Below are positions 35,713 through 64,000 of a stretch of DNA of 64,000 nucleotides, in pieces. The number at the start of each line of letters is the position of its first letter. Position 1 is the first letter of the stretch. Under the pieces are notes generated by a model. That model searched no databases and had not been told where the DNA came from. It saw only the letters and a list, made by a program, of their open reading frames with translations. Position numbers and translations under genes: made by a program. This DNA is from Vibrio sinaloensis (GTDB lineage: Bacteria > Pseudomonadota > Gammaproteobacteria > Enterobacterales > Vibrionaceae): the NCBI RefSeq assembly GCF_023195835.1, contig NZ_CP096199.1, positions 2,170,001 through 2,234,000 of the forward strand, given 5' to 3'.

Positions 35713-36079
35713 GGGGCTGATTTAGGATTCGACAGGAATTTTGCAGTCTGAGGTGCATGCCGTGGGGCGGTTGGCCACGTAAAAAGCCGCAAAAAAATAG
35801 TCGCAAACGACGAAAACTACGCACTAGCAGCTTAATAACCTGCTCAGAGCTCTCTCGCCCTAGCTTCCGCACGTAAGACGGGGACCAACGAGGGATCAAA
35901 CCCAAACGCGCTAGCCCGGATTCTCCCGCCTGAGAGATGAACGGCGAATTTTAATTCAGGATAGCCTTTGGCTGGCGTGTCGGTTCGCAGGTCACTGGTG
36001 AAATTAAAGATCGACTAAGCATGTAGTACCAATGATGAATGGTTCTTGGACGCGGGTTCAACTCCCGCCAGCTCCACCA
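35713..36079 (+). ncRNA. ssrA: Transfer-messenger RNA (tmRNA)
   Basis: 367 nt, starting GGGGCTGATTTAGGATTCGA and ending with the tRNA-like T-arm and CCACCA. The resume codon is at 35803, and the tag reads ANDENYALAA then TAA (35803-35835), almost the E. coli tag. It releases stalled ribosomes and tags the peptide for proteolysis. Its 3' end is the integration site of the island; the T-arm and acceptor are preserved by attL. Confidence 0.97.
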
Positions 36080-36090
36080 AACGTTTGGAA
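36057..36090 (+). repeat. attL: tmRNA 3' end plus flank
   Basis: The 3' tmRNA sequence TTCAACTCCCGCCAGC-T-CCACCA continues as AACGTTTGGAA. It recurs with a few changes, including a one-base deletion, at 52639-52671. The longest exact shared block is CCACCAAACGTTTGGAA (17 bp). Confidence 0.88.
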
Positions 36091-36284: not shown

Positions 36285-37511
36285 ATGGCGAGAACAACAA
36301 CCCGGTTGACGGACACCGCTATCAGAGCGGAAAAAAGCTCAGGGAAAGAACGTATACTATCCGACGGCAATGGTCTGCAACTTAGAATCATGCCCAATGG
36401 CACTAAATCTTGGCGTTTGCTATACAAGAACCCAGTTACGAACAAACCTGCGCGCCTCTCTCTTGGTACCTACCCCAACCTTTCTCTAGCTAATGCTCGA
36501 AAGAAAACCATCGAGTTTAAAGAGCTGGTGGCACAAGGTATCGATCCTAAAGCTCACCGTGAAGCCAAGCTAGAAGAAGCTCATTCACTTCGACACCATA
36601 CATTTATCAACGTTGCTCGTGATTGGTTTGAGGTAAAGAAAAGCGAAGTAAGCCCTGACTATGCAAATGATATATGGCGCTCACTGGAACTCCATATATT
36701 CCATGAATTAGCTGATACCCACATATCTGAAATCACGGCTCCTATGGTAATTAATACACTACGACCTTTGGAGGCCAAGGGCTCGTTAGAGAGCGTTCGA
36801 CGCGTAGTACAAAGGGCAAACGAGGTGATGACTTATGGTGTTAATACAGGTTTGGTACACAGTAACCCTTTAAGTGGTATCAAAGCAGCGTTCAAGGCCC
36901 CCAAAAAGAAAAATATGAAGTCCATCCCACCATCTGCTCTACCGGAGCTTATGGAGACTTTATCATTCGCTAGTATCAAGCTCGCTACACGCTGCCTCAT
37001 TGAGTTCGAACTTCATACTTTGGTTCGGCCAAACGAAGCAGCAGGCGCTCGATGGGCTGAATTCGATTTCTCTCAAAACCTCTGGATAATCCCAGCAGAA
37101 CGCATGAAGAAAAAAAAGAGAGAGCACCGAGTACCACTAACCCCACAGGTGCTTGAGATACTCGAGCGCATGAAGCCGTATTCTGGTCACAGAGAATATG
37201 TATTTCCTGGAGACCGAGACCCAAAACGCTCTATTGGCAGTCAAACAGCAAACGCCGCATTAAAGCGAATGGGATATAAGAACAAGCTTGTCGCACATGG
37301 TTTGCGTTCTATCGGTAGTACTGCGCTCAATGAAAAAGGATTTGAACCAGATCTGATTGAGTCCGCTTTGGCTCACGTTGATAAGAACGAGGTGCGGCGA
37401 GCTTACAATCGGAGTGATTTCTTAGAGCGTCGACGCGAAGTAATGGACTGGTGGAGCCAAACCATCGAGAAAGCATCAAAGAAGTCAACAGGTAAACTAA
37501 ATGTTCTCTAA
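36285..37511 (+). CDS. int: Tyrosine-type integrase of the ssrA island
   Basis: A 408-aa P4-like integrase. The N-terminal DUF4102 arm-binding domain (LTDTAIRAEKSSGKERILSDGNGLQLRI) is followed by the core-binding domain and the catalytic domain. Catalytic residues are Arg248 (LVRPNEA), His338-Arg341 (HGLR), His364 (LAHVD) and Tyr374 (RRAYNRS). It sits about 200 bp from the attL tmRNA end, pointing into the island, as in other ssrA-targeting islands including V. cholerae VPI-1. Its end overlaps the next gene by 11 bp. Confidence 0.95.
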   Translation: MARTTTRLTDTAIRAEKSSGKERILSDGNGLQLRIMPNGTKSWRLLYKNPVTNKPARLSLGTYPNLSLANARKKTIEFKELVAQGIDPKAHREAKLEEAHSLRHHTFINVARDWFEVKKSEVSPDYANDIWRSLELHIFHELADTHISEITAPMVINTLRPLEAKGSLESVRRVVQRANEVMTYGVNTGLVHSNPLSGIKAAFKAPKKKNMKSIPPSALPELMETLSFASIKLATRCLIEFELHTLVRPNEAAGARWAEFDFSQNLWIIPAERMKKKKREHRVPLTPQVLEILERMKPYSGHREYVFPGDRDPKRSIGSQTANAALKRMGYKNKLVAHGLRSIGSTALNEKGFEPDLIESALAHVDKNEVRRAYNRSDFLERRREVMDWWSQTIEKASKKSTGKLNVL

Positions 37512-41937: not shown

Positions 41938-44900
41938 TCAGCTTGAATACCACCCGTCAGCCATTGCCTCAGCTTGTTCGAGAACCAGCTTAATCGCCTC
42001 TTCAGCCGCATCTGGTGGATATTTCCATCGACGCAGTAGACGACGTACAAGGTTGCGCATCCGTGCACGCACACTCTCACGTTTCTGCCAATCTACAGTA
42101 GCGGACTTACGCAGTTGGTGAGTGAGTTCAATGGCTAGTTGGCGTAGGTTATCGTCGCCTAGGGTTCGCACAGAGGCTTCATTGGTGACTAGTGCACGGT
42201 AAAACGCAATTTCATCAGTAGACAGGTTGAGCTTATCCATCATTTCAGCGTCGGCTTGCATCTCTTTCGCCCACTGGATTAGCTCTTCAATTACCTGTGC
42301 GGTTTCGATACTACGGTTATGGTATTTACGCAAAGACTCTAAAATTCGATCGGAGTATTTCTTCTCTTGCACCACATCATTTTTCATACGAGCTTTGACT
42401 TCATCACGCAGCAGCTTCTCAAGCAGCTCAACGGCGAGGTTCTTCTCTTTCATGTTCTTAACGTCTTCTAAGAACTCTTCAGAGAGCAAGCCAATATTGG
42501 GTTTATCTAAGCCAACGGTTTTGAAGATGTCATCGACTCCATCTGCCACAATTGCATTGTTTAGGATTTGGCGCAAAGCAGAATTACGCAATTCATCACT
42601 GCGCTTTTTATCAACTGTCGAGTGTTTTAAGAAAGCAGTCTTTATCGCTCCATAAAACGCAATTTCGCTCTTATAGCCGTCCACTTCATCCAAGGTATTA
42701 CACAGAGAGAAGGCTTTCATAAGCGCTGCCATGACATCAAGAAAACGGCGTTTTCCATCACGAACTTCTTCGCCTTTGCTGTTGCGGTGTGAGAGACCAG
42801 ATATATGATTCACGGCTCCCGGAAGAAGTTGCAGTGGTTTGGTTTCAAAATCTGGACGATAGTTTAATACTTCACCATCAACGGGAGTCGCAAACATTCC
42901 GCGAATCACGTCTATTTTTTCCATGAAGACAGCTAAAGCTTCAGCGGTGTCGACTGTAGGCTGACCTTTCCCTTGACTGTTGGTATAGGTCTTAAGTGCG
43001 TTTTTAAGCTCATTGGCAATACCAATATAGTCAACAACCAAACCTCCGGGCTTATCTTTAAACACACGATTCACACGCGCTATCGCCTGCATCAGATTAT
43101 GGCCTTTCATTGGCTTGTCGATATACATGGTATGACAACAAGGCGCATCAAAACCTGTTAGCCACATATCACGGACAATTACCAATTGCAGTTCATCACT
43201 GGCGTCTTTATAGCGTTTCTCGAACAGCTTCTTGGTCTTCTTATCATGAATATGAGGCTGCATTTTGGCTTTGTCGGCGGCACTGCCTGTCATGACAATT
43301 TTAATTGCACCTTTGTTTGGATCTTCGCTATGCCATTCGGGTTTGATAGACACAATGGCGTCGTATAAATCCACACAAATCTCGCGACTCATGGCAACAA
43401 TCATTGCCTTACCCGGAAAGGTTTCACAGCGAGTGGTAAAGTGCTCAACCAGATCTTGGGCAACCTGCTGGATTCTTGGCTCCGCACCAACGAGTTTTTC
43501 GAGAGCTGACCACTGTGATTTTATTTTCTCGCGACTTTCCGTTTCTTCGTCTTCGCCAATTTCCTCTTCGACCTGATCGTTAAGCGCTTCGATTTCATCT
43601 TGATTAATATCGAGCTTGGCTAAGCGGGATTCGTAGTAAATCGGCACTGTCGCGCCGTCATCGACCGCGTCTTGAATATCGTAGATAGAAACATAATCAC
43701 CGAAGACACCGCGAGTATCTTTGTCATCTAGTGATATCGGTGTACCCGTAAAACCAATAAAGGCCGCATTTGGTAGCGCGTCACGCATATACTTTGAGTA
43801 ACCATAGACATAACGCTGATCAATCACATTGCCATTATCGTCTTTGACATCAACAAGACGAGCTTTATTGCCATACTGACTGCGGTGGGCTTCATCTGAC
43901 ACCACCACGATATTCGAGCGCTCAGAAAGAACCGGATGTGCCATTTCTTCGTCGAGTAAAGCAAACTTCTGTACGGTTGTGAAGATGATGCCACCGGACT
44001 GACGATTAAGAAGTAAATCGCGTAATGAATCACGATCTTCAGCCTGCTGAGGGATTTGCTTCAACGTTTCTTGCGCCATGGTGAAGGTATTGAATAGCTG
44101 GCCGTCTAGGTCATTACGGTCGGTAACCACTACTAAGGTTGGGTTATTCATTTCTGGTTGTTGCAGCAATTTACTTGCGTAACAGACCATCGAAATGCTT
44201 TTTCCACTTCCCTGAGTATGCCAAACCACGCCCGCTTTTTTACTTCCGGGCACCACGGTATTGGCGTAATTTGCCCGTGGCTCAGTAATTTGGTCGGACG
44301 TTGTGGCAGCCGTGACGGTTGCCTTAACAGCAGCTCGGACGGCATGGAATTGGTGATAACCTGCGATTTTTTTGATGATCTTGTCGCCATCATTTTCGAA
44401 CAACACAAAGTAACGAATGTAATCGAGCAACAGTTCAGGCTTAAAGAAGCCACGCACCATGGTCTCTAGTTGGAATTCGAGTAACGGCTTATCGCCTTCG
44501 TCCTCGATGGTTTTCCATGGCAAAAAGCGCTCTTTATTAGCCGTTAACGAGCCGACTCGCGCCGTCCAGCCATCAGAAATGACCAGCGCTTCATTGAACA
44601 CAAAGAGATCAGCGATTTCTTCTTTGTACGTTTGGATTTGATTGTAAGCATTCCAAATATCGGCATGATCATCAGCGGGGTTTTTCAGCTCTATCACTGC
44701 CAAAGGCAAGCCATTGATAAAGACAATTACATCTGGTCTACGATTGACTTTGGTGCCCGTGATGGTGAACTGATTGACCACTAAGAATTCGTTATTCTCA
44801 TGGTTCTCAAAATCAATTAATCGAACATGGGTATGCTTGGTTACCCATTGTTCATGCTCCATCACAGAGTATTCAACGGGCACACCCTCGATTAAATATT

Positions 44901-45165
44901 GGTGAAATAGTTTGTTGTTTTTAATCAGTACAGGCGTTTGCGGCGTGGCAACGATTTTCGCTACTTCAATTAAGGTGTCACAAGGTACATTAGGGTTTAA
45001 GGTTTCCAATGCCGACACTAAACGCGCCTGTAGCGTGACTTGCTGATAGTTTTCACGTTCAGGCGTATCACCATCTGGTGCGATGTCATAGCCATTTTGG
45101 TATTGGTAGCCTAGCTCTTTAAACCAATCGAGGCATTGTTGTTCTAGTTGGTCTTCAGTAATCAT
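41938..45165 (-). CDS. hsdR: Type I restriction enzyme, R subunit (HsdR)
   Basis: A 1075-aa ATP-dependent translocase/nuclease. The N-terminal PD-(D/E)xK nuclease has Asp145 (RPDVIVF) and Glu159-x-Lys161 (VIELK). The SF2 motor has Walker A TQGSGKS (317-323), DEAH 424-427 and FIGFTGTPI. Motif VI lies in AIARVNRVFKDK, and a helical C-terminal M-contact domain follows. Length and motifs are complete, so it is likely functional. It is last in the hsdM-hsdS-COG2958-hsdR operon, opposite to the satellite genes. Confidence 0.96.
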   Translation of the reverse strand: MITEDQLEQQCLDWFKELGYQYQNGYDIAPDGDTPERENYQQVTLQARLVSALETLNPNVPCDTLIEVAKIVATPQTPVLIKNNKLFHQYLIEGVPVEYSVMEHEQWVTKHTHVRLIDFENHENNEFLVVNQFTITGTKVNRRPDVIVFINGLPLAVIELKNPADDHADIWNAYNQIQTYKEEIADLFVFNEALVISDGWTARVGSLTANKERFLPWKTIEDEGDKPLLEFQLETMVRGFFKPELLLDYIRYFVLFENDGDKIIKKIAGYHQFHAVRAAVKATVTAATTSDQITEPRANYANTVVPGSKKAGVVWHTQGSGKSISMVCYASKLLQQPEMNNPTLVVVTDRNDLDGQLFNTFTMAQETLKQIPQQAEDRDSLRDLLLNRQSGGIIFTTVQKFALLDEEMAHPVLSERSNIVVVSDEAHRSQYGNKARLVDVKDDNGNVIDQRYVYGYSKYMRDALPNAAFIGFTGTPISLDDKDTRGVFGDYVSIYDIQDAVDDGATVPIYYESRLAKLDINQDEIEALNDQVEEEIGEDEETESREKIKSQWSALEKLVGAEPRIQQVAQDLVEHFTTRCETFPGKAMIVAMSREICVDLYDAIVSIKPEWHSEDPNKGAIKIVMTGSAADKAKMQPHIHDKKTKKLFEKRYKDASDELQLVIVRDMWLTGFDAPCCHTMYIDKPMKGHNLMQAIARVNRVFKDKPGGLVVDYIGIANELKNALKTYTNSQGKGQPTVDTAEALAVFMEKIDVIRGMFATPVDGEVLNYRPDFETKPLQLLPGAVNHISGLSHRNSKGEEVRDGKRRFLDVMAALMKAFSLCNTLDEVDGYKSEIAFYGAIKTAFLKHSTVDKKRSDELRNSALRQILNNAIVADGVDDIFKTVGLDKPNIGLLSEEFLEDVKNMKEKNLAVELLEKLLRDEVKARMKNDVVQEKKYSDRILESLRKYHNRSIETAQVIEELIQWAKEMQADAEMMDKLNLSTDEIAFYRALVTNEASVRTLGDDNLRQLAIELTHQLRKSATVDWQKRESVRARMRNLVRRLLRRWKYPPDAAEEAIKLVLEQAEAMADGWYSS

Positions 45166-45181
45166 TAAGCCTTTATCCTTA

Positions 45182-46111
45182 TTATTTATTCCATGCGCTC
45201 TTAATCAACCGTCCAGTTTGGTTATAAATGCCAACTTGCTCAATGTAATGGTGGAAATCCCTATTTTCAGAGACGATTCGGTTTGCAGATTGCCAATCCA
45301 CGTTGACTCTCTCTTGAGCTGGAATGAGTATTTGGCTATCAAACAAAGATTCAGTATCCAGAATCAGAACGCCAATCCCGTGCAAGCTCGACAACATTTG
45401 CAGCTCACCTTCAACGTCGCTATTTAAGCCCGTGGCAACAAGATAGCCGAAATTGGCCCAACTCGAATTCGATACGGCTTGGAAAAAGTATTTTCGTACA
45501 TTGCTTTTGGTAAGATGTTTCTTCACTTCAAAAGACCAAAGTCGAACCGAGCTGTGATTCCCACTACGCACACAGCTTCTCACAATTTCATCCCAACCTT
45601 GGTCGAGCGGCTCTAACGCCACCACATCAGGATGTAACCAGTGATTGCCACCGTTTCCATGAGAGTTTTTAGATTTACGCTCGTCAATGCGCTGACAGTA
45701 AAGACCCAGATCCTTACTGAGGTACTCAATCAACATTGGGTAGAGATCGTTCTCGCTTAAGCTTTGCGGCACCAGAGGCGTATCGATGTCTGATTCAACT
45801 GCATCGCTAAGATCATCTTCCTGATGAGCAGATGTAGGCTTCTGCTCCCAGTAATAAACCCGAGGTCTTGGTTTGTCACGAGTGGCGACATTAGGACAAA
45901 CGATTTTCGCTCTTTCAGTACGTTCCCCACCAATTTCTGCCGCGAGCTGGGCGATAAGCTTTTCTTCGGTGTTGTATCGCGGGTTTGCTTGCTTCTCAGC
46001 GATTTCTTCTGGATATCGAAGCACAAATTCTTTGGCTAAATCCCGAGCAGTAAACTTCTTGTCGGGGTTCGCCTTGAGCGTTTCGATAATCATTTCTACT
46101 CGGGTTGCCAT
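45182..46111 (-). CDS. COG2958/HrgA-like HTH-nuclease-fold protein within the hsd operon
   Basis: 309 aa. The N-terminal winged-helix-like region (RVEMIIETLKANPDKKFTARDLAKEF) is followed by a linker and a C-terminal domain. Residues HPD (160-162) and FEVKK (Glu195, Lys197) in that domain form a PD-(D/E)xK-like pattern. The layout fits COG2958 / HrgA proteins, which are often encoded with restriction systems. It overlaps the hsdS stop by 1 bp (TAATG) and precedes hsdR by 16 bp. Its role in the R-M complex is unknown. Confidence 0.8.
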   Translation of the reverse strand: MATRVEMIIETLKANPDKKFTARDLAKEFVLRYPEEIAEKQANPRYNTEEKLIAQLAAEIGGERTERAKIVCPNVATRDKPRPRVYYWEQKPTSAHQEDDLSDAVESDIDTPLVPQSLSENDLYPMLIEYLSKDLGLYCQRIDERKSKNSHGNGGNHWLHPDVVALEPLDQGWDEIVRSCVRSGNHSSVRLWSFEVKKHLTKSNVRKYFFQAVSNSSWANFGYLVATGLNSDVEGELQMLSSLHGIGVLILDTESLFDSQILIPAQERVNVDWQSANRIVSENRDFHHYIEQVGIYNQTGRLIKSAWNK

Positions 46112-47343
46112 TATTCGACCTCTGCTAATTCTTGAGCTTGTCCTAACTCGATTTCGCCGGAAAGCAATTTAGGAAGTAGCGTGTCACGCATAGCTGCAAG
46201 CTGTACATTTTGATTAAGAAGAGAGCCTTTTTGCTTAACTAAATTACCCACAACATCGTTAAATTTATTCAGTAGCTCACTTGATGGAAGTGCAAATTCA
46301 TACGAGTTGAAGTCGCCTTTTTTGAAGAATGCTCTCGCGCTGCCAGACGCTAACCCCATATTAAGTTTCACCAATCCATCCACCATATATTTGGTGTAGA
46401 AACGCAAGCTTTCATCTTTAGGTCTAAAACACCACATGTTCTGATTACGCAACGCTGGCAGTTGATGAGGATAGATCATAGCTGTTTTGCCAATACTCGC
46501 TGCAACCATTACAACGTGATAATCATACGCTTCACAGAGATACTTTTTATGACTTTCAAGGAACTCATCAGGAAGGTAAACATCGTCACCTAACCGCTCG
46601 ACCGAGTTGGATGAATCAAAGTTTTTAGTTCTGAGTACGAACGTACCTTCTTTTACGTAGTCTGGACTCTTGAATGCAAATCCATTCAATAAATCGATGA
46701 CCTTAGATAGCTTAGTTACTTCCCACCCATCAGGAATCAAACCCAACTCAGACTCAACGAGCTTTTCTGGGAATAGCGAGGCAGTCGCTTCATCCATTCC
46801 CTTTGGTTGTTCGCCATTCATCTTGGCTTTTACGGGGTCGAAATCGACAAACCATGACTTGAAGATAGCCTGTGCCATTTGTTCTAGGGTTTGGTTGGTT
46901 TGTGTATTGAGCGCTATCTTGTCATCAAGGTCACCTAACTGCTTGGAAATAGCTTTCTCTCTGTCGATACCTAGTTCGTTTACCAATAATGAGCTTAAAT
47001 GATTGCGATTTAGTGTAGGAACACCAGAGCCAACATTAAATTTTGTAAAATCAATACTACGCATTAAATAATAAATATAACGAGGATCATGTCCTTTGAA
47101 GTCTTTGACCCAAAGAGTAGTATTCAAAGGCCAAAATGGTTCCTGAATGTATTGACCGCCACCAATACTTCCGCTTCGGCCAATTACTACTCCGGGAGCA
47201 TCGACTTTGGCTGTATTGTGGTATCCCCCAATACCTGTAGAAGCGATAACAGGAACTGTACCCTCAGCTCTATCTCCCTTAGGAAGATCAAACCCTCTTT
47301 GTAAGGTAATAAACTCATTCAGTGGTGTTTTTTCAAAGCTCAT
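46111..47343 (-). CDS. hsdS: Type I restriction enzyme, specificity subunit (HsdS)
   Basis: It recognises the bipartite target for both methylation and cleavage. The 410-aa protein has two target-recognition domains, about residues 1-130 (LQRGFDLPKGDR ... WPLNTTLWVKDF) and 205-370 (LIPDGWEVTKLSKVIDLLNGFAFKS). Two conserved helical spacers separate them (KQLGDLDDKIALNTQTNQTLEQMAQ and near the end LLNQNVQLAAMRDTLLPKLLSGE, quoted in part). It overlaps hsdM by 11 bp. The recognition sequence cannot be predicted. Confidence 0.95.
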   Translation of the reverse strand: MSFEKTPLNEFITLQRGFDLPKGDRAEGTVPVIASTGIGGYHNTAKVDAPGVVIGRSGSIGGGQYIQEPFWPLNTTLWVKDFKGHDPRYIYYLMRSIDFTKFNVGSGVPTLNRNHLSSLLVNELGIDREKAISKQLGDLDDKIALNTQTNQTLEQMAQAIFKSWFVDFDPVKAKMNGEQPKGMDEATASLFPEKLVESELGLIPDGWEVTKLSKVIDLLNGFAFKSPDYVKEGTFVLRTKNFDSSNSVERLGDDVYLPDEFLESHKKYLCEAYDYHVVMVAASIGKTAMIYPHQLPALRNQNMWCFRPKDESLRFYTKYMVDGLVKLNMGLASGSARAFFKKGDFNSYEFALPSSELLNKFNDVVGNLVKQKGSLLNQNVQLAAMRDTLLPKLLSGEIELGQAQELAEVE

Positions 47344-49036
47344 AACCTAACCCCGCTAGGTTCTTCTTGATCTCAGCTTCTAGCGTTGCGGATTCTGCAA
47401 ATTGCTCACTCAACTTAGCCGTTAGCGCTGCCATCTTCTCACCAAATGGAACACCATCGTCTAGCTCTTCAGCAGCGCCAACATAACGTCCCGGAGTGAG
47501 CACAAAATCGTGTTTCTTAATCTCTTCCAAAGTTGCTGATTTGCAGAAGCCTGCTTGGTCTTCATAAGCGATACCATTTACTTCCGCGCCAGTTTTCCAT
47601 GCATGGTAAAGGTCTGCGACTTTCTGAATGTCATCACGAGTGAAATCACGCAGAACGCGGTCTTTCATATAGCCAAGGTTGCGCGCATCAATAAATAACA
47701 CTTCACCTTTGCGATCACGCAGCTTACGACCTGATTTATCGGTACGAGCTTTTTTGTTTTTGGTTAAGAACCAGATACAGGCCGGAATCTGCGTGTTGGT
47801 AAACAGTTGTCCCGGAAGCGCAACCATACACTCCACTAAATCGTTCTCGACCAGCGCAGCACGAATTTCGCCTTCGTTGTTAGTGGTCGAACTCATCGAA
47901 CCATTGGCAAGTAACAAGGCTTGTGAGCCATCAGGTGCAAGGTGGTAAAGCATATGCTGCATCCAAGCAAAGTTAGCGTTACCTGAAGGAGGTGTGCCGT
48001 ATACCCAGCGTGGATCATTATCATCGACACCTGTATTCCACTCTTTCATGTTGAAAGGTGGGTTAGCCATGATGAAGTCAGCTCGTAAATCAGGGTGTTG
48101 GTCGTTGGTATAGGTGCTGGCAGGCTCCTTACCAAAGTCATAATCCAATCCACGGATTGCCATGTTCATCGCAGCAAGCTGCCATGTGGTGTAGTTGTAT
48201 TCCTGACCGTAAATCGAGATTCGTTGCTTTTGCGTTAACGGGTCAATCTCTTTTTGGTTCGCGCGGCGCTCAATAAATCTCTCTGATTGTACAAAGAAAC
48301 CACCGGAACCCATCGCTGGGTCATACACACGGCCTTCAAACGGTTCAATCATCTCAACAATCAGCGAAACGATTGATGCTGGCGTGTAGAACTGACCGCC
48401 TTTCTTACCTTCAGCAAGCGCAAACTGGCCTAAGAAGTATTCGTAAATATGACCAAGAATATCTTTGCTATTAAGCGATTTATGATTGAATGGGATGGTC
48501 GCAATTAGGTTAATCAGTTCATTCAGTTTTGCCTGATCAATTTTTAGCGATGCGTAGTGCTTGTTGAGGACACCTTTGAGCTTCTGGTTGTCGCGCTCAA
48601 TCCCCTCCAATGCATTATCAATCAGGTGACCAACAGACGTAATTTTCTTCGTCTTACCATCAATAACCAAATCGGCACCGCCAATGACCATCGGGCCATT
48701 GCCTTGCAGGAACTTCCAACGAGATTCAGTAGGCAACCAAAACACGTTTTTCTCTTTGTAGTAATCGCGCTGTTCCAGCTCAATCGCGATTTCTTGTTCA
48801 AGCTCTTCAGCCGTGTAACCCTCAGGATCGAAGAAATACTCGTGGTCAGGGTTAGCAAAGTCTTGTTTTAGTTCTTCTTGGCGCAACATGAAGGCGTCAG
48901 ACACGTATTTAACGAAAATTAAGCCAAGCACCGCATGTTTGTATTGAGAGGCATCGAGTGACGCACGGAGTTTGTCTGCGGCTGTCCAGAGCTTGCTTTC
49001 CAGCTCTTTGAGGAATAGTTGTTCTTGTTCGTTCAT
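47333..49036 (-). CDS. hsdM: Type I restriction enzyme, M subunit (HsdM)
   Basis: A 567-aa N6-adenine DNA methyltransferase. The N-terminal HsdM_N helical domain (about residues 10-165) precedes the Rossmann domain, with GQFYTP near 215, motif I DPAMGSGGFF (239-248) and the catalytic NPPF (325-328). It is the first gene of the operon and overlaps hsdS. The gene is intact; all three core hsd genes are complete. Confidence 0.96.
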   Translation of the reverse strand: MNEQEQLFLKELESKLWTAADKLRASLDASQYKHAVLGLIFVKYVSDAFMLRQEELKQDFANPDHEYFFDPEGYTAEELEQEIAIELEQRDYYKEKNVFWLPTESRWKFLQGNGPMVIGGADLVIDGKTKKITSVGHLIDNALEGIERDNQKLKGVLNKHYASLKIDQAKLNELINLIATIPFNHKSLNSKDILGHIYEYFLGQFALAEGKKGGQFYTPASIVSLIVEMIEPFEGRVYDPAMGSGGFFVQSERFIERRANQKEIDPLTQKQRISIYGQEYNYTTWQLAAMNMAIRGLDYDFGKEPASTYTNDQHPDLRADFIMANPPFNMKEWNTGVDDNDPRWVYGTPPSGNANFAWMQHMLYHLAPDGSQALLLANGSMSSTTNNEGEIRAALVENDLVECMVALPGQLFTNTQIPACIWFLTKNKKARTDKSGRKLRDRKGEVLFIDARNLGYMKDRVLRDFTRDDIQKVADLYHAWKTGAEVNGIAYEDQAGFCKSATLEEIKKHDFVLTPGRYVGAAEELDDGVPFGEKMAALTAKLSEQFAESATLEAEIKKNLAGLGYEL

Positions 49037-49145: not shown

Positions 49146-49742
49146 ATGGCTGCTTGGAATAAAGGTAAAAGAGTTGGGCAGAAGAAAGCGTTTAAATTGG
49201 AAGACATTTGACGAATTCGAATTCGGTTGGAGCTTGAAGAACGACTGTTCGAGTTAGCGCTTTTCAACCTTGCCATAGATAGCAAACTCAGAGCGTGTGA
49301 CTTGCGTAACCTAAAGGTACAAGACGTAAGCCACAGTGGCTGCGTGATGTCACGAGCTATTGTGAAGCAACAGAAAACCCATCAAGAAGTGCACTTCGAG
49401 ATCACGCCTAAGACCCAACAAACCTTGTCTCAATGGATTATCCTTAATGGTCTGACACAAACCGACTACGTCTTCCCAAGTCCACGCCGTGAAGGGCAAC
49501 CAATCTCTTACCATTACTACACGACTATGGTTAACAGATGGGTAACGGATATCGGTTTAGATAAATCTCAGTACGGCACACATTCGCTACGTCGCACCAA
49601 GGATTCTTTGATCTACTCCAAAACCAAGAACTTACGTGCTATCCAGTTACTTCTTGGACATGCTAAGTTAGAAAGTACTATTGAATACCTTGGTGTTGAG
49701 ATTGAAGATGCGCTAAGGATTTCGGAGAGTTGTGAGACTTAA
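49146..49742 (+). pseudogene. Second tyrosine recombinase broken by an in-frame TGA
   Basis: ATG 49146 with a good RBS (AAGGAG) opens MAAWNKGKRVGQKKAFKLED, then Ile and TGA (49209-49211). The frame then continues RIRIRLELEERLFELALFNL to 49742. The family (a widespread compact site-specific integrase) has Trp at this position (EIW.IRIRL), so TGG changed to TGA. Downstream catalytic motifs remain: THSLRRTK, LLLGHAKLEST and the Tyr in IEYLG. Reinitiation at 49227 would lose the N-terminus. Confidence 0.85.
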
Positions 49743-51962: not shown

Positions 51963-52403
51963 ATGGAACCGTCAAAACAGTTAAATTGGGTTAAAGGCTT
52001 AAAGACAGCGTACCAGTGCCTTGGTGCTACTCAACGTGATCAATATTCTTGGGTCGCTCAAACCGATGAAACCTATGTGTTTTCTGCGGAAACAGACCAT
52101 ATAGATCCTGAAAACAACAAATACAGCCACAAGGCAGGGACGTTTTTCAAAAGAGTTCCAGCAATGACCAAAGAACTTGGCCATGAACCTCTAAGTGTCA
52201 GCCATTCCAAAGAATTATTTGAAGCTGTAACTGATGCAATGTCTCGGTCTATCGAATGCTATGTGATACTGGTAAAAGGCACTAAATTTGGAACTACCAA
52301 AGGAGGTGTTAAAGCTGGTTATGACAGCCACTTGTGGATAGTGAAGGAACTCAATGGATCGGTTGAGAAAGGCTATCAGTTCAAGCTCTGTCGAACACGG
52401 TGA
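51963..52403 (+). CDS. Hypothetical island protein (146 aa)
   Basis: Not recognised. A small soluble protein (KQLNWVKGLKTAYQCLG at the start; SHLWIVKELNGSVEKGYQFKL near the end) without signal peptide. The ATG has only a weak RBS. It is the last gene before attR and divergent from the lipase-like gene. Confidence 0.65.
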   Translation: MEPSKQLNWVKGLKTAYQCLGATQRDQYSWVAQTDETYVFSAETDHIDPENNKYSHKAGTFFKRVPAMTKELGHEPLSVSHSKELFEAVTDAMSRSIECYVILVKGTKFGTTKGGVKAGYDSHLWIVKELNGSVEKGYQFKLCRTR

Positions 52404-52638: not shown

Positions 52639-52671
52639 TTCAAACCCCGCCAGCCCACCAAACGTTTGGAA
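52639..52671 (+). repeat. attR: partial duplicate of the tmRNA 3' end
   Basis: ATTCAAACCCCGCCAGC then CCACCAAACGTTTGGAA. Relative to attL it lacks one T before CCACCA and has two or three substitutions, so it is an aged copy that no longer encodes a working tmRNA end. It marks the right border. Confidence 0.85.
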
Positions 52672-52672
52672 A

Positions 52673-52706
52673 GGCGCTAACTCTTTGGAGTTAGCGCCTT
52701 TTTTGT
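52673..52706. terminator. Terminator just outside attR
   Basis: AAGGCGCTAACTC / GAGTTAGCGCCTT stem followed by TTTT. It lies between attR and the convergent methyltransferase-HNH gene. It may have been the ssrA terminator of an earlier inserted element or of the pre-island chromosome. Confidence 0.85.
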
Positions 52707-52716
52707 TCAAACTGTT

Positions 52717-54411
52717 CTATTCCCATTCATTGATCAGCAAACGGCTTTTTAGGCCCCTGACTTGGAACCCCATTGCTTCAAACACTTCTTCGCAATCTTC
52801 AGTGTGGCGAGAGATGTTGGGAAGTGAGAACGCAGCTTGTGTGAAAAATCGTTGTTTATACTCTGGCTCACTCAACCACGCCAGTTTCCACCACTCAACA
52901 ATACGCTGTTTCGAACTCGTTAGCTTTCTAGAAGAAGGGACTCGGCTACTCTTTTGCAGATTTTCTTTTTGAGTCGTTGGCAATAAGTTCCAATAGTCAT
53001 TGTTTGGCCAGTAGGTGAAGGGCAAACAGTGATCGACATGGATGTTTTTGCTGAGTTTTGCTCCACTCCAAACACTGTGTAAGTGATGATCGTTTGCCAA
53101 TAAGCTATCGATACGCTGCCTAATAGGACGAGTATCATGCTCTCTATCTATCCAAGCGAGGCTGTTGTGATAGGTTTGAAGTGACAGGTTTCTTTGCTGA
53201 TTGAGCACATAACTCTGCATCTCAAGCACCCACTGATTGACAACCAGTGGCTCAATCCATGAGTGATACAATCGCATGCACTCCCAAAGACTTTCATCAA
53301 GCACGAACTCACCAAAACTGGACAGAAATGCCATATCCAGTTGCACCGTAGGCTGCATTCTTTTCGCTTTGCGAGAAACCGTAAAGACTCGATTCTCTTT
53401 GCTACCGATATAAGTAAACTTGACCGGATTTTGAGTAATGGTACTGATAGCATCGCGCAGTGTACGTTGCAGCGCTTGAGCCTCCTCAGCAAAAAACAGA
53501 CTGCCAATAGACAGATCTTCTGGTGCTAAATGACTCATCTGCCCCCAGCCATCAGGCTTGATAAAGCTCAACCCCCGCGACGGATTGGAGTTTTGCTGAA
53601 TCTGCTCTTTATCTATCAAACGTTTGAATTGCCTAACCCAATACAACCCCACAAGACCAAGTGGTATCGCGACTCGAGCATCACTTCTGTCTATCACCGC
53701 GCCTGGGTGCGCATCCGCGATCCGCAACAAAGTCCTTAACAGTGCTAATTTGTAGGTCGCCGATTTACGATCATTCACGATGATATGTCGGATTTTATTG
53801 AGATCCCCGGAGCCATCATCAGGCAAGCTCATGACCATTGTCTGCCAACTGACCCCATCCCTTTTTAGGCTATCGTCACTCTGAGAGATATGGTTGACCA
53901 GCAACGCGCTATTTTTAGCCAGTTGCTGAATTTCTTCAACCGATACAGGATACGCCTGTCGGCCATCTTCAAACTCTCCATGGCGCAAGGTGATGATAAG
54001 ACGCCCATTAGTTTTGAGTAGATTAGATAGTTTTCGAAAAGCCCGTTGACGTGAACTTGGGGGAATGTGCATCCAAACAGCGCTGACAAGAATAACATCG
54101 AATCTGAGCCCAAGTGAGACAACCCGATTGAGTGACGGGAGCGTATCATTAAGCCAACTCACTCTGTCTTTGGTGTTTTCTCGGCCCAAATGACGCATAG
54201 CTTCGGCGGGCTCTACCGCAAAAACCTCGCAGCCTTGCTCAGCCATCCACTTTGCATCTCTGCCCGAGCCAGCGCCGATATCGAGAACTCTATCCCCTTT
54301 CATCGGCCAATGCGCCTTCCAACTGTCATGAGCGGATGGAAAGTCCAATTGATTGTACTGTTCGGCTAAGCGTGTAGCGTGACAGTGGTAGATGGAAGAA
54401 GAGTCGGACAT
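52717..54411 (-). CDS. SAM methyltransferase - HNH nuclease fusion protein
   Basis: 564 aa. Residues about 1-150 are a class I SAM-dependent methyltransferase: motif I VLDIGAGSG (42-50), an acidic AVEPAE (65-70), and VILVSAVWMHIPPSSR. The middle (about 200-440) is helical and unassigned; it contains RKSATYKLALLRTLLRIAD. The C-terminal part holds an HNH-type site, HVDHCLPFTYWPNND (from 458) with YWNLLPTTQKENLQK. I know no named system with this architecture. It lies just outside attR, suggesting remnant cargo of an earlier insertion. Confidence 0.75.
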   Translation of the reverse strand: MSDSSSIYHCHATRLAEQYNQLDFPSAHDSWKAHWPMKGDRVLDIGAGSGRDAKWMAEQGCEVFAVEPAEAMRHLGRENTKDRVSWLNDTLPSLNRVVSLGLRFDVILVSAVWMHIPPSSRQRAFRKLSNLLKTNGRLIITLRHGEFEDGRQAYPVSVEEIQQLAKNSALLVNHISQSDDSLKRDGVSWQTMVMSLPDDGSGDLNKIRHIIVNDRKSATYKLALLRTLLRIADAHPGAVIDRSDARVAIPLGLVGLYWVRQFKRLIDKEQIQQNSNPSRGLSFIKPDGWGQMSHLAPEDLSIGSLFFAEEAQALQRTLRDAISTITQNPVKFTYIGSKENRVFTVSRKAKRMQPTVQLDMAFLSSFGEFVLDESLWECMRLYHSWIEPLVVNQWVLEMQSYVLNQQRNLSLQTYHNSLAWIDREHDTRPIRQRIDSLLANDHHLHSVWSGAKLSKNIHVDHCLPFTYWPNNDYWNLLPTTQKENLQKSSRVPSSRKLTSSKQRIVEWWKLAWLSEPEYKQRFFTQAAFSLPNISRHTEDCEEVFEAMGFQVRGLKSRLLINEWE

Positions 54412-59439: not shown

Positions 59440-59472
59440 CAATCATCACGAGAGCCCACTGGCTCTCGTTTG
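59440..59472. terminator. Hairpin between convergent Sua5-type and DUF429 genes
   Basis: ACGAGAGCC / GGCTCTCGT with T-rich flank on the plus strand. Confidence 0.7.
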
Positions 59473-60174
59473 ATTTTCTAGGTAGACAATCTCGCGCACT
59501 CGGCCATTAGCGTCTTTATCTGGATTGATAGGGAGCGTGCTCAGGTGTGGCCATTCACGCGCAATCAACATCAGTACAAAAGCGTCAATGATGTCATCAC
59601 GGCTAGCGGTTTTGCGCGGGATAGTGTTGAGTTGCTGGTGCAGTACAGCCATCCATTGTGGCGCTCGCTTTTCAATAATCGCTAAACGTTGTTGCTCCCC
59701 TACGGCTCTCTTTTTGTTGTGCACAAGCGGCGCCCCATTAAGCTCAGTAAACACCACCTCCGGGTGAGATTCACGCAGCGATAATTCGGGATAGTGTGTC
59801 AGTAGTGCATCGACCTGTTTGACTTTGGGCAAAATATACCAGCTCTGCTTTGAGAGTTTTTTACCGAGCACTGCCTGATTGTTCTCACAGGCCTCGGGAT
59901 AGTTCGGCGCATAGACTGCCTCTTGGCATGGCACAGGGAATACGCTCGAGGCGCGTCTACCCAATCGCTGACGCGCAGCCTTATCACACAACCGATCGGG
60001 CGTGCTCGCATCGCTAAAACCAATTGGAATATCAATCAAACTATGTGCAGAGCGAAGCAGCGAAAGCGCATCGACAAGCTGCTCCACGATATGACATTCG
60101 GGGCTGTCATCCACTAAGGTCCAAATCACCCACCCCGCCTTACAGCCATCAATCCCATTCACTGTTTTGACCAT
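59446..60174 (-). CDS. DUF429 domain protein (RNase H-like fold)
   Basis: 242 aa. It begins NGIDGCKAGWVIW, with the Asp in the first strand typical of RNase H-like folds. LIDIPIGF, RPGRRASSVFPVP-like (here RLGRRASSVFPVP) and RDDIIDAFVLMLIA are the DUF429 signatures with further acidic residues. It is possibly a nuclease; no activity is established. The hairpin after the Sua5-type gene overlaps its last codons. Confidence 0.85.
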   Translation of the reverse strand: MVKTVNGIDGCKAGWVIWTLVDDSPECHIVEQLVDALSLLRSAHSLIDIPIGFSDASTPDRLCDKAARQRLGRRASSVFPVPCQEAVYAPNYPEACENNQAVLGKKLSKQSWYILPKVKQVDALLTHYPELSLRESHPEVVFTELNGAPLVHNKKRAVGEQQRLAIIEKRAPQWMAVLHQQLNTIPRKTASRDDIIDAFVLMLIAREWPHLSTLPINPDKDANGRVREIVYLENQTRASGLS

Positions 60175-60615: not shown

Positions 60616-62970
60616 TTATTGAAAAGTCAGTGACCAACTATTGATACGCCCCGTATCTTGGCGCGCATTATCAACGGCTTTTAGCGTCCAATCACCTTGG
60701 GATTCAAAACCGCTGAAATCGACTTGATAGCTAGCACGAATATCGCTCTTAGAGCCCCCTTCATTGTCATGCAATACGGCTTGAGCGCCTGTCGGTGACG
60801 TTAGGGTGACTTTCAAGTCGCCAACATAGCTGTGACTGATATCAAGTTCAACGGTCACCGTTCCTGCGTCCCCTGAGCGCGGCACAGAAATAGCACTGCT
60901 CGCACCTAACGCACTGTTATCAGGAATCGACACTGACTCACTATTGCTGTAACTCGATGGCTGTGTTGAGCCGTTATCAGAACCATTGTGAGTCGCCACC
61001 AGAGTCGCTCCAGTATAGGCTTTGTAACCATCGATCAACACCTGGAATGTGCCTTGACCATTGACATCCAAGCGACAAGACTCTTGGTTACCGCTTTGCC
61101 ATGAGCGACAGTCGTAATTGCTCGTGGTTGGCTCACCATTAAAGCTGACGTACATGTCCGCATCACCGCTACCGCCACTTAAGTTGAACGTTGCTGAAGT
61201 GGCATCGGCTGGCACATCAAAGGTTAACAAACGGCTCGACTTAGCGTCGCCCGACAATGGAGCGGTCGCCACGCCATTTTCCAGTTGTGGTTTTAATACT
61301 TCACCGCCATCACACCCTTTGTCTAGGTATGCTTTCGCAGCATCTGCATTCACCAAGCCATATCCAGTACGATTATCGCGCCCTGCCACATCGATATCGG
61401 TCGCCGTTGCGGTGAGCGCTCTACGAATTTGCTGCGCACTACAGGTTGGATGGTAACTCCAAACCAAGCCGGCTACCCCTGTCACATGTGGTGTCGCCAT
61501 CGACGTACCATTGTAGTACTCATAATCTTCACCTGTGGTGGTAGACACAATCACGCTTTGACCCACTTGCGCCGACAACTCTTGACCTAATGCACGATCA
61601 ACGGTGACCGAGACCAATCCATACGCATCGTTGTCGTCAAGAACAAATGGGTTTTGTAGGCCAGGTAAGTCTTGATTACTGTATACAATCGCCGCTTTGG
61701 CGCCTGCGTTGTAACACGCTTTGACCGGATCAATTTCAGGACGAACGCCAGTGCGTTGGTTGTCAATTCGTTCGGTTAAACAGACCTTGTCTGTCATGTC
61801 ACCACACTCATAACGGCCAGATGAAATGTCACATTCTGCCAGTGGCGCATTTACGCTACCGGCTACCGGAGCCGAAGTGTAAGAGCCTGACTGAAGAATC
61901 TTACGGTTGTGCGGCACAACACCACGTTCAAAGTAGCTGGTGCCATTGATGTTAATATCCGACAGTACCCCTTCGCCCACAGTGACAGTAGACAACACAG
62001 CAACGCCTGGCGCCGCGATGTCGACCTGATCGGTCGCTTGCGAGAACGCCGCATGATCGCTGTTAGTATCGACAGCGGCCACTGACATTACCGCATCGTA
62101 AGACGCAGGGTAACTGTGCGCGGTGTTACCTGAGTTACCTGCCGCAGCAATGAGTAACACGCCCTGATCATAAAGTGATTGCAGTGCGTTTTGCTCTGTG
62201 CGGCTGGATTGACTACCACCCAAGCTCATGTTGACCACGTTAGCACCGTTGTCGGCACACGTTTGAATCGCTTTTACTAGGCTTGATGAGTATCCCCAAC
62301 CTGATTCATTGAATACTTTAACGATGTGCAGATTGACGTTTTGGTTGGGCATTACGCCCTTCACACCTTCGTTATTGGCAATCGCAGCAATGGTGCCCGC
62401 AACATGGGTGCCGTGAGCATTATTGTTGCCTGGTGCGCTCCAAGAGCCCGTGCCGCTGTCGTTGGTGCCGTCGACTCGGTTACCGCTCAAATCGTTGTGC
62501 GCTAGGTCGTAACCCGAATCAATGATACAAACAGTGCGATTTCCCGCATTGGCGTCATCAAGCAATTGCGCGTTCACCGCCTCAAAGCCCCAAGGCGTGG
62601 TTTCGCTGAGTAGGTAACGAGGAGGATCAACCTCGACATACTCAACCTGATCGTTGCTACGCAATGATGAGAGCTGCTGCTCATCCATCTCTACGCTGTA
62701 GATAGGCGTTGCGCCCAGCTTTTCCACTTTACGCGCCTCAACCTGCTCTAGCACCGATTGACGAACTTCACTCGGTGCCATCACTGGCTCACCGGCACGA
62801 GTAAATGGTGCTGGGGCGTTGTCTTTAAACTTAACGATATATTTGGTTGGAAGATCGGCTTCATTGAAGCCTAAGCCGGGCGCTGCATGCGCCGCGGACA
62901 ATCCTGCCATAGCCACTGCGACGGTTGATAGGGTAAATAACCCTTTGCTTTTATTAATTATGTTGTGCAT
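60616..62970 (-). CDS. Secreted S8 serine protease (subtilisin-like) with P domain
   Basis: 784 aa. Signal peptide 1-29, I9 prodomain about 42-118, then the subtilisin domain with Asp151 (IIDSGYD), His187 (NAHGTHVAGT) and Ser490 (NGTSMATPH). A PA-like insert lies at about 380-470. A PPC domain (about 575-655) and a proprotein-convertase P domain (about 680-784) complete the chain. All catalytic residues are present. It is probably an extracellular protease exported by type II secretion. The prodomain-like gene follows directly. Confidence 0.93.
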   Translation of the reverse strand: MHNIINKSKGLFTLSTVAVAMAGLSAAHAAPGLGFNEADLPTKYIVKFKDNAPAPFTRAGEPVMAPSEVRQSVLEQVEARKVEKLGATPIYSVEMDEQQLSSLRSNDQVEYVEVDPPRYLLSETTPWGFEAVNAQLLDDANAGNRTVCIIDSGYDLAHNDLSGNRVDGTNDSGTGSWSAPGNNNAHGTHVAGTIAAIANNEGVKGVMPNQNVNLHIVKVFNESGWGYSSSLVKAIQTCADNGANVVNMSLGGSQSSRTEQNALQSLYDQGVLLIAAAGNSGNTAHSYPASYDAVMSVAAVDTNSDHAAFSQATDQVDIAAPGVAVLSTVTVGEGVLSDININGTSYFERGVVPHNRKILQSGSYTSAPVAGSVNAPLAECDISSGRYECGDMTDKVCLTERIDNQRTGVRPEIDPVKACYNAGAKAAIVYSNQDLPGLQNPFVLDDNDAYGLVSVTVDRALGQELSAQVGQSVIVSTTTGEDYEYYNGTSMATPHVTGVAGLVWSYHPTCSAQQIRRALTATATDIDVAGRDNRTGYGLVNADAAKAYLDKGCDGGEVLKPQLENGVATAPLSGDAKSSRLLTFDVPADATSATFNLSGGSGDADMYVSFNGEPTTSNYDCRSWQSGNQESCRLDVNGQGTFQVLIDGYKAYTGATLVATHNGSDNGSTQPSSYSNSESVSIPDNSALGASSAISVPRSGDAGTVTVELDISHSYVGDLKVTLTSPTGAQAVLHDNEGGSKSDIRASYQVDFSGFESQGDWTLKAVDNARQDTGRINSWSLTFQ

Positions 62971-63367
62971 CTGCTCTATTCCTTTTCGAGCTATTTTTTA
63001 GTCTAAATAACACTCACTCTCATCATTTGGTATGACAAGAGATGAGCGCTCTAGCTATAAGGCATGAACAGAAAACAACCAAAGGCTTAGTAGAGTAAAG
63101 ACACTATTTTTCAACTCAAGATCACTGAATCCACCAAAAGAGTGAACGGTCAATAGAAATAGTATTTTTATCTTAAAAAGCAATCACTTATTTAGTGATT
63201 AGCTGTTTTATCTGGCGATAAAACAGCCTTATTGAGCGTGTGACGCACAAACAGTGACCCGCCGCCAAAGCTGGCGGATTTTATGTTGCAATTTAGTTAA
63301 ATAGAATTAAAACTCTAGGCTTAAGTCATGATTGACCCTATCAAGTGTTCAACCTAAGGAGTTCATT
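62971..63367. other. Intergenic region upstream of the protease and plsC
   Basis: About 400 bp without a gene. It contains a perfect hairpin GCTGTTTTATC / GATAAAACAGC (63202-63227) without a T-run and a weaker CCGCC / GGCGG hairpin near 63256-63275 followed by ATTTTAT. It holds the divergent promoters of the two flanking genes. Confidence 0.5.
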
Positions 63368-64000
63368 TTGCTCGCTGTACTGCGCCTACTATTGGCTGGA
63401 ATATACATTGTTATCATGACACTGTTCGCCGCGGTCTACTGCTTGTTTAGCCCGCGCAACCCAAAGCATGTGTACTTTTTCTGTCGCTGGTTTAATCAAC
63501 TGCACAAACTGCTCGGTGTTGAGCTTATCCAACGTGGACTCGACAATGCCCCACTGCCGCGCAATAGTGTCTATATCTCCAATCACCAAAGTGTGTACGA
63601 CTTTGTCACCTCTCCCGGCATGCTCAGACCTCGCACCGTGTCGTTAGGAAAAAAAGAGCTGATTTGGGTGCCGTTTTTTGGCTTCTTGTATTGGATCACC
63701 GGCAATATTCTTATCGACCGACAAGACAAATCAAAAGCACGTGACACCATCAAGCAGGTGGCCGACGCCATACATCAGCGAAACTTGTCTGTTTGGGCTT
63801 ACCCCGAAGGAACACGCAGCAAAGGTCGTGGGCTTTTACCTTTTAAAACTGGCGCATTTCGAATGGCGATTGAAGCTGGGGTCCCTATTACCCCTATGGT
63901 GGTGAGCACGACGCACAATAAGTTTGATCTCAACCGCAGTGACAACGGCATTGTCATTACTGAAATGCTTGAGCCTATTGAAGTCACCAACTATAAACTC
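63368..64000 (+). CDS. plsC: 1-acyl-sn-glycerol-3-phosphate acyltransferase, C-terminus cut by window edge
   Basis: It acylates lysophosphatidic acid to phosphatidic acid at the inner membrane. 211 codons are visible. An N-terminal hydrophobic helix (LAVLRLLLAGIYIVIMTLFA) precedes the acyltransferase motifs: NHQSVYDF (His-x4-Asp, about residues 73-78), GNILIDRQ, and AYPEGTRSKGRG. The start is TTG at 63368 with AAGGAG 6 bp upstream; the first ATG is 16 codons later and would cut the membrane helix. Confidence 0.9.
   Translation, partial: MLAVLRLLLAGIYIVIMTLFAAVYCLFSPRNPKHVYFFCRWFNQLHKLLGVELIQRGLDNAPLPRNSVYISNHQSVYDFVTSPGMLRPRTVSLGKKELIWVPFFGFLYWITGNILIDRQDKSKARDTIKQVADAIHQRNLSVWAYPEGTRSKGRGLLPFKTGAFRMAIEAGVPITPMVVSTTHNKFDLNRSDNGIVITEMLEPIEVTNYKL

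Follow-up and report, generated by a model that had tools for sequence, protein, structure and literature searches.

Type IIG enzymes hold, in one polypeptide, an endonuclease, a target domain and a DNA-type methyltransferase (MTase) with the motif (D/N/S)PP(Y/F/W), and a catalytic (D/N/S)PP(Y/F/W) or PC motif is expected of DNA-type MTases in general. Enzymes also serve as antitoxins, as in the HEPN-MNT toxin–antitoxin systems. ParB-HNH and phage ParB-Methyltransferase_23 fusions are described in the consulted part of PMC12704722, and SRA-, EVE- and wH-HNH enzymes in that of PMC12707154; all of them differ in layout from the protein considered here. The consulted part of PMC10853773 covers nucleases around dnd and CxC systems, including HKD-helicases and wHTH(SBD)-SAD-HNH proteins, and gives the adenine-MTase signature as [SDN]PP[FYW]; it does not describe the MTase treated here, nor do the HNH passages of PMC12839542 describe its layout. 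Here we analyze a gene in a 64,000-nucleotide stretch of Vibrio sinaloensis DNA (contig NZ_CP096199.1; the whole stretch is called the window) that joins an S-adenosylmethionine (SAM)-dependent MTase to an HNH nuclease through a middle domain. With a probability of roughly 0.55, we read it as the one-chain form of a modular defense-associated family, in which the MTase would be constant and the toxic effector exchangeable. The gene is divided as follows.

52717..54411, minus strand: ORF encoding MTase, middle domain and HNH nuclease; 564 amino acids (aa), ATG start, without internal stop
53821..54411, minus strand: class I SAM MTase domain, residues 1-197, from Pfam, residue counts and its occurrence as a standalone gene elsewhere
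53107..53820, minus strand: middle domain, residues about 198-435, holding KSATYKLALLRTLL and homologous to the N-terminal part of the unfused TYK-HNH protein
52936..53052, minus strand: HNH_4 nuclease core, residues 454-492, from Pfam, with invariant D460, H461, N475 and N484

The fusion had been proposed by a sequence-only reading of the window, and it is borne out by the single 564-aa ORF, by Pfam matches at both ends and by full-length homologs. In Pfam, residues 38-147 match methyltransferase families (Methyltransf_23, E 8.7e-13), residues 454-492 match HNH_4 (E 1.5e-5; 25.3 bits, cutoff 22), and the helical middle domain matches no family. The motif VLDIGAGSG starts at residue 42, KSATYKLALLRTLL at residue 216 and HVDHCLPFTYWPNND at residue 458; within the MTase domain we recognized LDIGAGSGRD, E67-P68, SAVWMH, RHG..D.R and D180-R184-W189. 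A protein search returned 2502 of 8000 scored candidates at E<=1e-3, and each of the best 120 of these relatives covers 99-100% of the query, one of them at 97% identity. The HNH site is not degenerate across the fused homologs: its four catalytic residues, D460, H461, N475 and N484, are kept together with K487 in 93 of 93 distinct fused sequences, and the window protein satisfies the HNH_4 catalytic pattern DH ... N ... N. The same 93 sequences all keep MTase residues G46, G50, D52, E67, P68, W113, R151, D180, R184 and W189, with H115 present in 92. Judged by these residues, both domains look active, and each probably catalyzes its reaction.

The MTase does not resemble a DNA-modifying enzyme. 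When the family profile was compared with the PDB, the HNH part matched Cas9 HNH domains (6o56, E 0.0013), and the best 60 of 191 sequences matched by the profile include, for the MTase part, tRNA (CmoM, 8joz), TehB, thiol, protein, and small-molecule MTases, with no entry named as a DNA MTase among those 60. The domain also resembles TPMT, and in PHROGs it matches the tRNA methyltransferase family phrog_4752 (E 5.6e-11). In the alignment, the motif after strand 4 is SAVWMH rather than (D/N/S)PP(Y/F/W), and the standalone MTase, at about 205 aa, leaves little room for a target domain. The family of the window protein shares with type IIG and other single-chain restriction–modification (RM) enzymes the union of methyltransferase and endonuclease in one polypeptide, but differs from type IIG in its non-DNA-type MTase, its HNH_4 nuclease and its relatives with partners that are not nucleases.

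The sequence-only reading knew of no described system with this layout, and we likewise found no system name for it in PADLOC (2023), NCBIfam, Pfam or PHROGs, and no paper naming it in the open-access literature, a scope outside which most subscription papers lie. PADLOC gave three matches to the window protein at E<=1, namely mad2, whose model positions 291-420 of 492 align with the MTase part (E 1.4e-18), and two weak Cas9 matches over the HNH part (E 0.0015 and 0.0057), and no system component matched across the entire protein. The likeness to MADS is to the MTase part only and not full-length. NCBIfam returned MTase matches alone among the best 25 of 33, far under their cutoffs. PD-lambda-5, labeled 'methyltransferase' and termed a compacted prophage version of an RM+Abi system in the consulted part of PMC9519451, was considered as the same system and set aside; it was compared by description only, the consulted parts of PMC9519451 and PMC12629846 offering no sequence link. 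What the MTase does will decide whether the family merits its own category.

The MTase occurs with several kinds of partner. Scanning GTDB genomes contributed 80 loci to our first set and an order survey another 40, making 120 in all, with some genomes possibly in both. These loci hold 121 MTase ORFs, of which the 79 longer than 400 aa all carry the middle domain and HNH. Among the 42 shorter ones, three are broken fusions (L083, L092, L130); an SBD-HNH gene lies next downstream in 15 and next upstream in two, a TYK-HNH gene next downstream in seven, and a PLD-type helicase adjoins two by a first motif test. The remaining 13 showed no partner, although L177 was later assigned a helicase, the only domain Pfam detects there, and L120 is a truncated fusion. 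We then collected 198 distinct MTase sequences, a set seeded by MTase searches and partly hand-picked, so that its proportions are not population frequencies. In this set, 106 MTases are fused to HNH (four of these ORFs are shorter than 480 aa, being truncated or broken), 24 adjoin SBD-HNH (22 with the nuclease downstream, two upstream), and 13 adjoin TYK-HNH, two of which are the broken fusions L092 and L130. A two-transmembrane (2TM) domain is adjacent in 12 and fused in four, a PLD-type helicase is adjacent in seven and fused in one, and 31 have none of these partners. Some of those 31 are fragments or stand at a locus edge (L219, L225-L229), and ORF calls are poor in GC-rich loci (e.g. L098, L288, L295, L297). 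The 20 places examined, out of 39 in a phylum survey, held four fused HNH forms (one split), two fused 2TM forms, four TYK-HNH pairs, one fused and one adjacent PLD-helicase, and eight MTases without partner; nine plasmid records held three 2TM partners (two fused, one adjacent), one whole fusion beside McrC, and five MTases with no partner.

The TYK-HNH protein is homologous to the middle domain plus HNH of the window gene (hhalign 98.0%, E 1.5e-13, 255 columns), also when the N-terminal parts are compared alone (91.9%, E 6.8e-7, 54 columns), and the window gene therefore looks like the fused version of a gene pair that persists in relatives. The SBD-HNH nuclease is of another kind. Its N terminus matches the sulfur-binding domain SBDHga1 (8h0l, E 1.6e-40), its C terminus matches another HNH endonuclease (6yex, E 2.5e-38), and the NCBIfam model for restriction of phosphorothioate (PT) DNA, NF045808, matches it at E 5.9e-17 and 61.7 bits (cutoff 180); by hhalign, the window protein shows no detectable similarity to either part. 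PT-dependent restriction enzymes of this kind (the ScoMcrA type) are neighbors of the same MTase in the 24 distinct cases counted above, whereas the window protein carries HNH_4 with a TYK middle domain and no sulfur-binding domain. A vague likeness in helix motifs had suggested that the middle domain might itself bind sulfur, a candidate that we dropped when hhalign against the SBD profile gave a probability of 0.1%. A simple hydropathy scan shows two hydrophobic stretches in the coliphage forms of the 2TM protein. The motif R.LN...WQ.P...GGLW...RLR is common to the forms from coliphage, Sphingopyxis, and Rhizobium, and in Rhizobium and two further genomes the domain and the MTase make up one protein. 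On two plasmids of Rhizobium, the 2TM-MTase fusion (L232:3557-4576 and L238:3578-4579) sits inside dnd clusters, adjoining a DGQHR or DndB gene, and on a Sphingopyxis plasmid an MTase copy adjoins a cysteine desulfurase and DUF4007. Pairs with a PLD-SF2 helicase (DUF3427) recall the HKD-helicase (PbeA) of CxC systems (PMC10853773, consulted in part): family MTases lie directly upstream of such helicases or are fused to them, but five of these eight MTases belong to a distant clade, and the window gene has no helicase.

Several further arrangements were seen among the distant relatives. A related MTase and a PLD-helicase-like protein share a single 1286-aa frame in one genome (L303:5244-9104, G470), with an S24-like, DUF3427-like C terminus by eye, and are neighboring, unfused genes at L017, L018, L020, and L304. 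In another genome, a 514-aa TYK-HNH (L302:5966-7510, G439) has at its C terminus a stretch that looks, by eye, like the S24-like portion of the PLD-helicases; this TYK-HNH and the PLD-helicases both follow a related MTase. At L299, L300, and L301 (G375, G572, G551), a distant TYK-type HNH lies directly upstream of the MTase with frames overlapping by 1-68 bases, and two of these three genomes share the family code f187. An Escherichia coli reservoir of the L300 pair was considered and rejected, as blastn found no match to it in 5426 E. coli genomes.

Partners have been exchanged between closely similar MTases. L172 and L173 have MTases with 96% identity over 204 aa, and L033 and L181 have MTases with 92% identity over 203 aa; in each pair, SBD-HNH follows one MTase and TYK-HNH the other. 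In both pairs, DNA homology (88% and 90%) is already present upstream of the MTase and breaks off 11 bases short of the gene end. Between L033 and L164, both with SBD-HNH, homology at 71% continues through the nuclease. On a tree of 104 rows, made by a quick method and with weak support for 46 of 101 inner branches, 34 changes of partner label are needed, compared with a minimum of seven and a shuffled mean of 64.3; partners thus run in families and yet have been exchanged often. The adjacency of MTase and TYK-HNH is mutual: a search for TYK-HNH in 247 genomes of the order gave seven matches, of which six strong ones are TYK-HNH genes directly behind this MTase and the seventh, a weak match (E 2.7e-11), lies in a short locus in which no MTase was found.

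The family is defense-associated, as the sequence-only reading had proposed to check. Neighbors came from the surroundings of the 40 loci of the order survey, where we sampled 125 of 251 ORFs with lengths of 120 to 1500 aa; the MTase itself and members of the SBD-HNH, TYK-HNH, and PLD-helicase families were left out. Controls were 125 of 179 ORFs from 20 places picked by hand in 20 of those genomes. At E<=1e-25, 91 PADLOC families were matched among the neighbors and four among the controls; PADLOC families overlap and several may match one protein, so that the matched proteins number fewer than 91. The best 25 of the 91 include type I and type II MTases, DdmD, DdmE, DpdE, Cas1f, DndB, ZorD, MzaB, and PDC-M51A; the control families are mad3, mad8, DEDDh, and PDC-S48. 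The mad3 model matches two of 125 neighbors and one of 125 controls, which is hardly different. When 10 proteins from single loci were scanned with PADLOC, a Septu pair, a NERD+UvrD match, and an MkoA-like helicase were found near L021 and type I RM beside L033; scanned neighbors from L027 and L029 had no PADLOC match. Septu (PtuA-PtuB) resembles the window gene in having an HNH nuclease effector and in occurring in defense islands, but the window gene lacks the ATPase part and has no PtuB match at E<=1.

Protection of DNA sites is an unlikely role for an MTase whose partners include a membrane protein, a helicase, and two HNH nucleases unrelated to each other; more likely, it controls the activity of the effector or senses the trigger. 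Our best reading, for which we would give slightly better than even odds, is a defense (or toxin–antitoxin-like) module whose toxic effector is exchangeable and gated by the MTase. The constant part would be a SAM MTase of small-molecule, tRNA, or protein type, not of DNA type, that regulates the effector in cis or in a complex. In the window gene the effector would be a Cas9-type HNH nuclease attached to the middle domain, and in relatives the unfused TYK-HNH, the unrelated SBD-HNH, the PLD-type helicase, or the 2TM membrane protein. While SAM and substrate are available, the MTase would methylate its partner or another target and so keep the effector off or set its trigger; phage infection or another disturbance would release the effector, which would cut DNA or, in the membrane variant, damage the membrane, and the module may in this way protect against phage. 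By analogy with toxin–antitoxin systems whose antitoxin is enzymatic, an enzyme would here partner a nuclease toxin; compared with HEPN-MNT, a methyltransferase replaces the nucleotidyltransferase, the toxin class varies, and both parts often form one chain. A more specific proposal, which we hold as tentative and short of an even chance, is a methyltransferase-centered immune family with a shared SAM-enzyme sensor or switch into which nucleases (two HNH types and the PLD-type helicase) or the 2TM domain are plugged. Recombination at the 3′ end of the MTase, or fusion, would bring the effectors in, and the single-chain HNH form would be the one in the window. Phage might be sensed when SAM runs low, when the phage alters a substrate, or when a methylated target is lost.

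The family is patchy in Vibrio and in wider bacteria. At E<=1e-5, and counting the V. sinaloensis genome itself in each survey, the middle domain plus HNH was found in 14 of 299 phylum genomes (three of the 14 weakly, E about 1e-7 to 1e-8) and in five of 274 class genomes. Among 118 Vibrio genomes, 49 match at E<=1e-30: 29 with the whole fusion (one with an internal stop), two split, and 18 with the MTase part only. The gene is single copy in its own genome. Members are spread across marine Gammaproteobacteria, and one branch is on E. coli prophages. Plasmid matches comprise 33 records, nine of them covering at least 80% of the query. Phages were considered as carriers of the whole fusion and set aside, since 50,697 phage records gave one partial and no full-length match and the 20 loci found on viral contigs match the MTase part only. 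Coliphage phi458 carries an MTase and 2TM pair between an integrase and an annotated regulator gene, and its MTase gene is present at at least 99% identity in 29 of 5426 E. coli genomes.

In the window, the gene adjoins the right end of an island inserted at ssrA, with these features around it.

52655..52671, no strand assigned: attR of the ssrA island, a 17-bp exact repeat of the tmRNA 3′ end
36074..36090, no strand assigned: attL copy at the ssrA 3′ end (tmRNA at 35713-36079)
52673..52704, plus strand: inverted repeat followed by a T-run, by eye the native ssrA terminator displaced by the island

By eye from its ORFs, the island carries genes for an integrase (36285-37511) and for type I restriction (41938-49036). 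A 171-aa phage-integrase piece (49227-49742; Phage_integrase, E 6.7e-17) lies on the attR side of the restriction genes, still within the island, and a 146-aa ORF without Pfam match (51963-52403) adjoins attR; overall, Pfam found among the neighbors of the fusion gene a lipase-like protein, the integrase piece, and two proteins without family. The stretch with the inverted repeat (query 190-257) has short matches in several Vibrio relatives at up to 98% identity. The repeat was not listed by a terminator scan, and a scan of promoter and terminator features gave three promoter-like and two terminator-like sites, not above shuffled sequences.

The exact 17-bp repeats agree with the sequence-only reading that the fusion gene lies just outside attR; its stop codon is 45 bp beyond, on the chromosome side. 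The further proposal that the gene is cargo of an earlier element of the same hotspot fared worse: with up to three mismatches allowed, the window holds no third att copy, so that an earlier ssrA element lacks direct support, and we set this proposal aside. The position beside this attR may be coincidence. For 28 fused Vibrio loci, one per genome, we looked for relatives of the window ORFs named by eye as PlsC (63332-64000) and DUF429 (59446-60174): 13 lie near one or both, and 15 have neither within the surrounding 13-20 kb. In some Vibrio genomes, then, the gene has a settled place in one chromosomal block, and in the others its positions are scattered. The sequence-only reading had named homologs in core locations as a finding against it; 13 loci share the conserved neighborhood, and the other 15 lie elsewhere. 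At L311, the fused gene stands between relatives of a 784-aa window ORF (60616-62970) and of PlsC, and the block seems to acquire the gene at differing points across Vibrio species.

Several points weigh against a gated defense module. No ligand-binding or docking domain is common to the effectors, all of which one MTase would have to control. One cluster of relatives has 1197 members under the name V. parahaemolyticus, and this cluster and the common neighborhood of 13 of 28 loci fit a gene that is near-core in some lineages. The partnerless cases (31 of 198 MTases and five of nine plasmid records) indicate that the MTase can work alone; L293, L294, L296, and L298 are beside genes that read as metabolic. 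At one of these, the orphan MTase (L298:5423-6043, G412) lies between kbl and tdh, identified by eye as threonine degradation genes, with a 4-base overlap with both. Nine MTases with TYK (four) or PLD-helicase (five) partners (L299-L304, L017, L018, L020) form the distant clade, and their pairings may be independent of that of the window gene. The MTase-seeded sampling and the overlap of PADLOC families noted above count on the same side. A housekeeping or repair role, in which an RNA- or nucleotide-modifying MTase and the HNH nuclease would act in DNA or RNA quality control as long residents of Vibrionales and Alteromonadales, would accommodate the shared neighborhood of the 13 loci, the CmoM-like and tRNA-MTase-like similarity, and the orphan MTases beside metabolic genes. 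The patchy distribution (14 of 299 phylum and five of 274 class genomes for the middle domain plus HNH; 29 of 118 Vibrio genomes for the whole fusion), the broken copies, and the defense neighbors argue against it, and we consider it improbable.

Fusion into one chain bears on another alternative, a selfish addiction module, with the MTase as antitoxin to a toxic partner (HNH or membrane protein) and a gene pair that serves chiefly to maintain itself. Pairs of genes whose frames touch or overlap, carriage on plasmids and prophages, and exchange of the toxic part would all fit such a module. Classical addiction, however, depends on differential stability of toxin and antitoxin, which fusion into one chain abolishes, and 106 of the 198 collected MTases are one-chain fusions; the neighborhoods, moreover, are rich in defense genes, and we think an addiction module unlikely. 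The sequence-only reading had suggested single-chain modification–restriction as one possibility. In such an enzyme, the MTase would mark host DNA, the HNH domain would cut unmarked DNA and the middle domain would read the target. Both enzymes are in one chain with both sites conserved, RM genes are among the neighbors of relatives, and the middle domain might, as a guess, bind DNA. On the other side stand the 60 best PDB relatives with no named DNA MTase, the tRNA methyltransferase assignment in PHROGs, SAVWMH at strand 4, the scant room for a target domain in the standalone form, and the pairing of the same MTase with a 2TM membrane protein and unrelated nucleases. Since the MTase lacks the hallmarks of a DNA MTase and can have a membrane-protein partner, single-chain RM is unlikely as a general mechanism; an RM role limited to the HNH forms is possible. 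Modification-dependent, type IV-like restriction with a link to sulfur, in which the MTase would alter a mark, for example by S-methylation of phosphorothioate, and the nuclease would sense it, draws on the SBDHga1 and PT-DNA restriction matches of SBD-HNH, on the MTase copies in the dnd-type clusters of two Rhizobium plasmids and beside the cysteine desulfurase and DUF4007 in Sphingopyxis, and on the likeness to TPMT, TehB, and thiol MTases. Yet the middle domain of the window protein matches the SBD at only 0.1% by hhalign, the dnd-linked MTase copies are of the 2TM class, and no dnd gene was recognized in the ORF lists of the window, no search of the genome having been aimed at dnd genes; we regard this explanation as very doubtful.

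Modular defense systems are usually recognized by a signaling or sensing core with changing effectors. If the reading as a gated defense module is true, the core in this family would be a methyltransferase unlike a DNA modifier, an unexpected chemistry to find beside a nuclease. Near-identical MTases with different nucleases would then be natural experiments on the role of the MTase for each effector, and the spread of the family in marine Gammaproteobacteria, together with its branch on E. coli prophages, would make it testable in standard phage–host systems.

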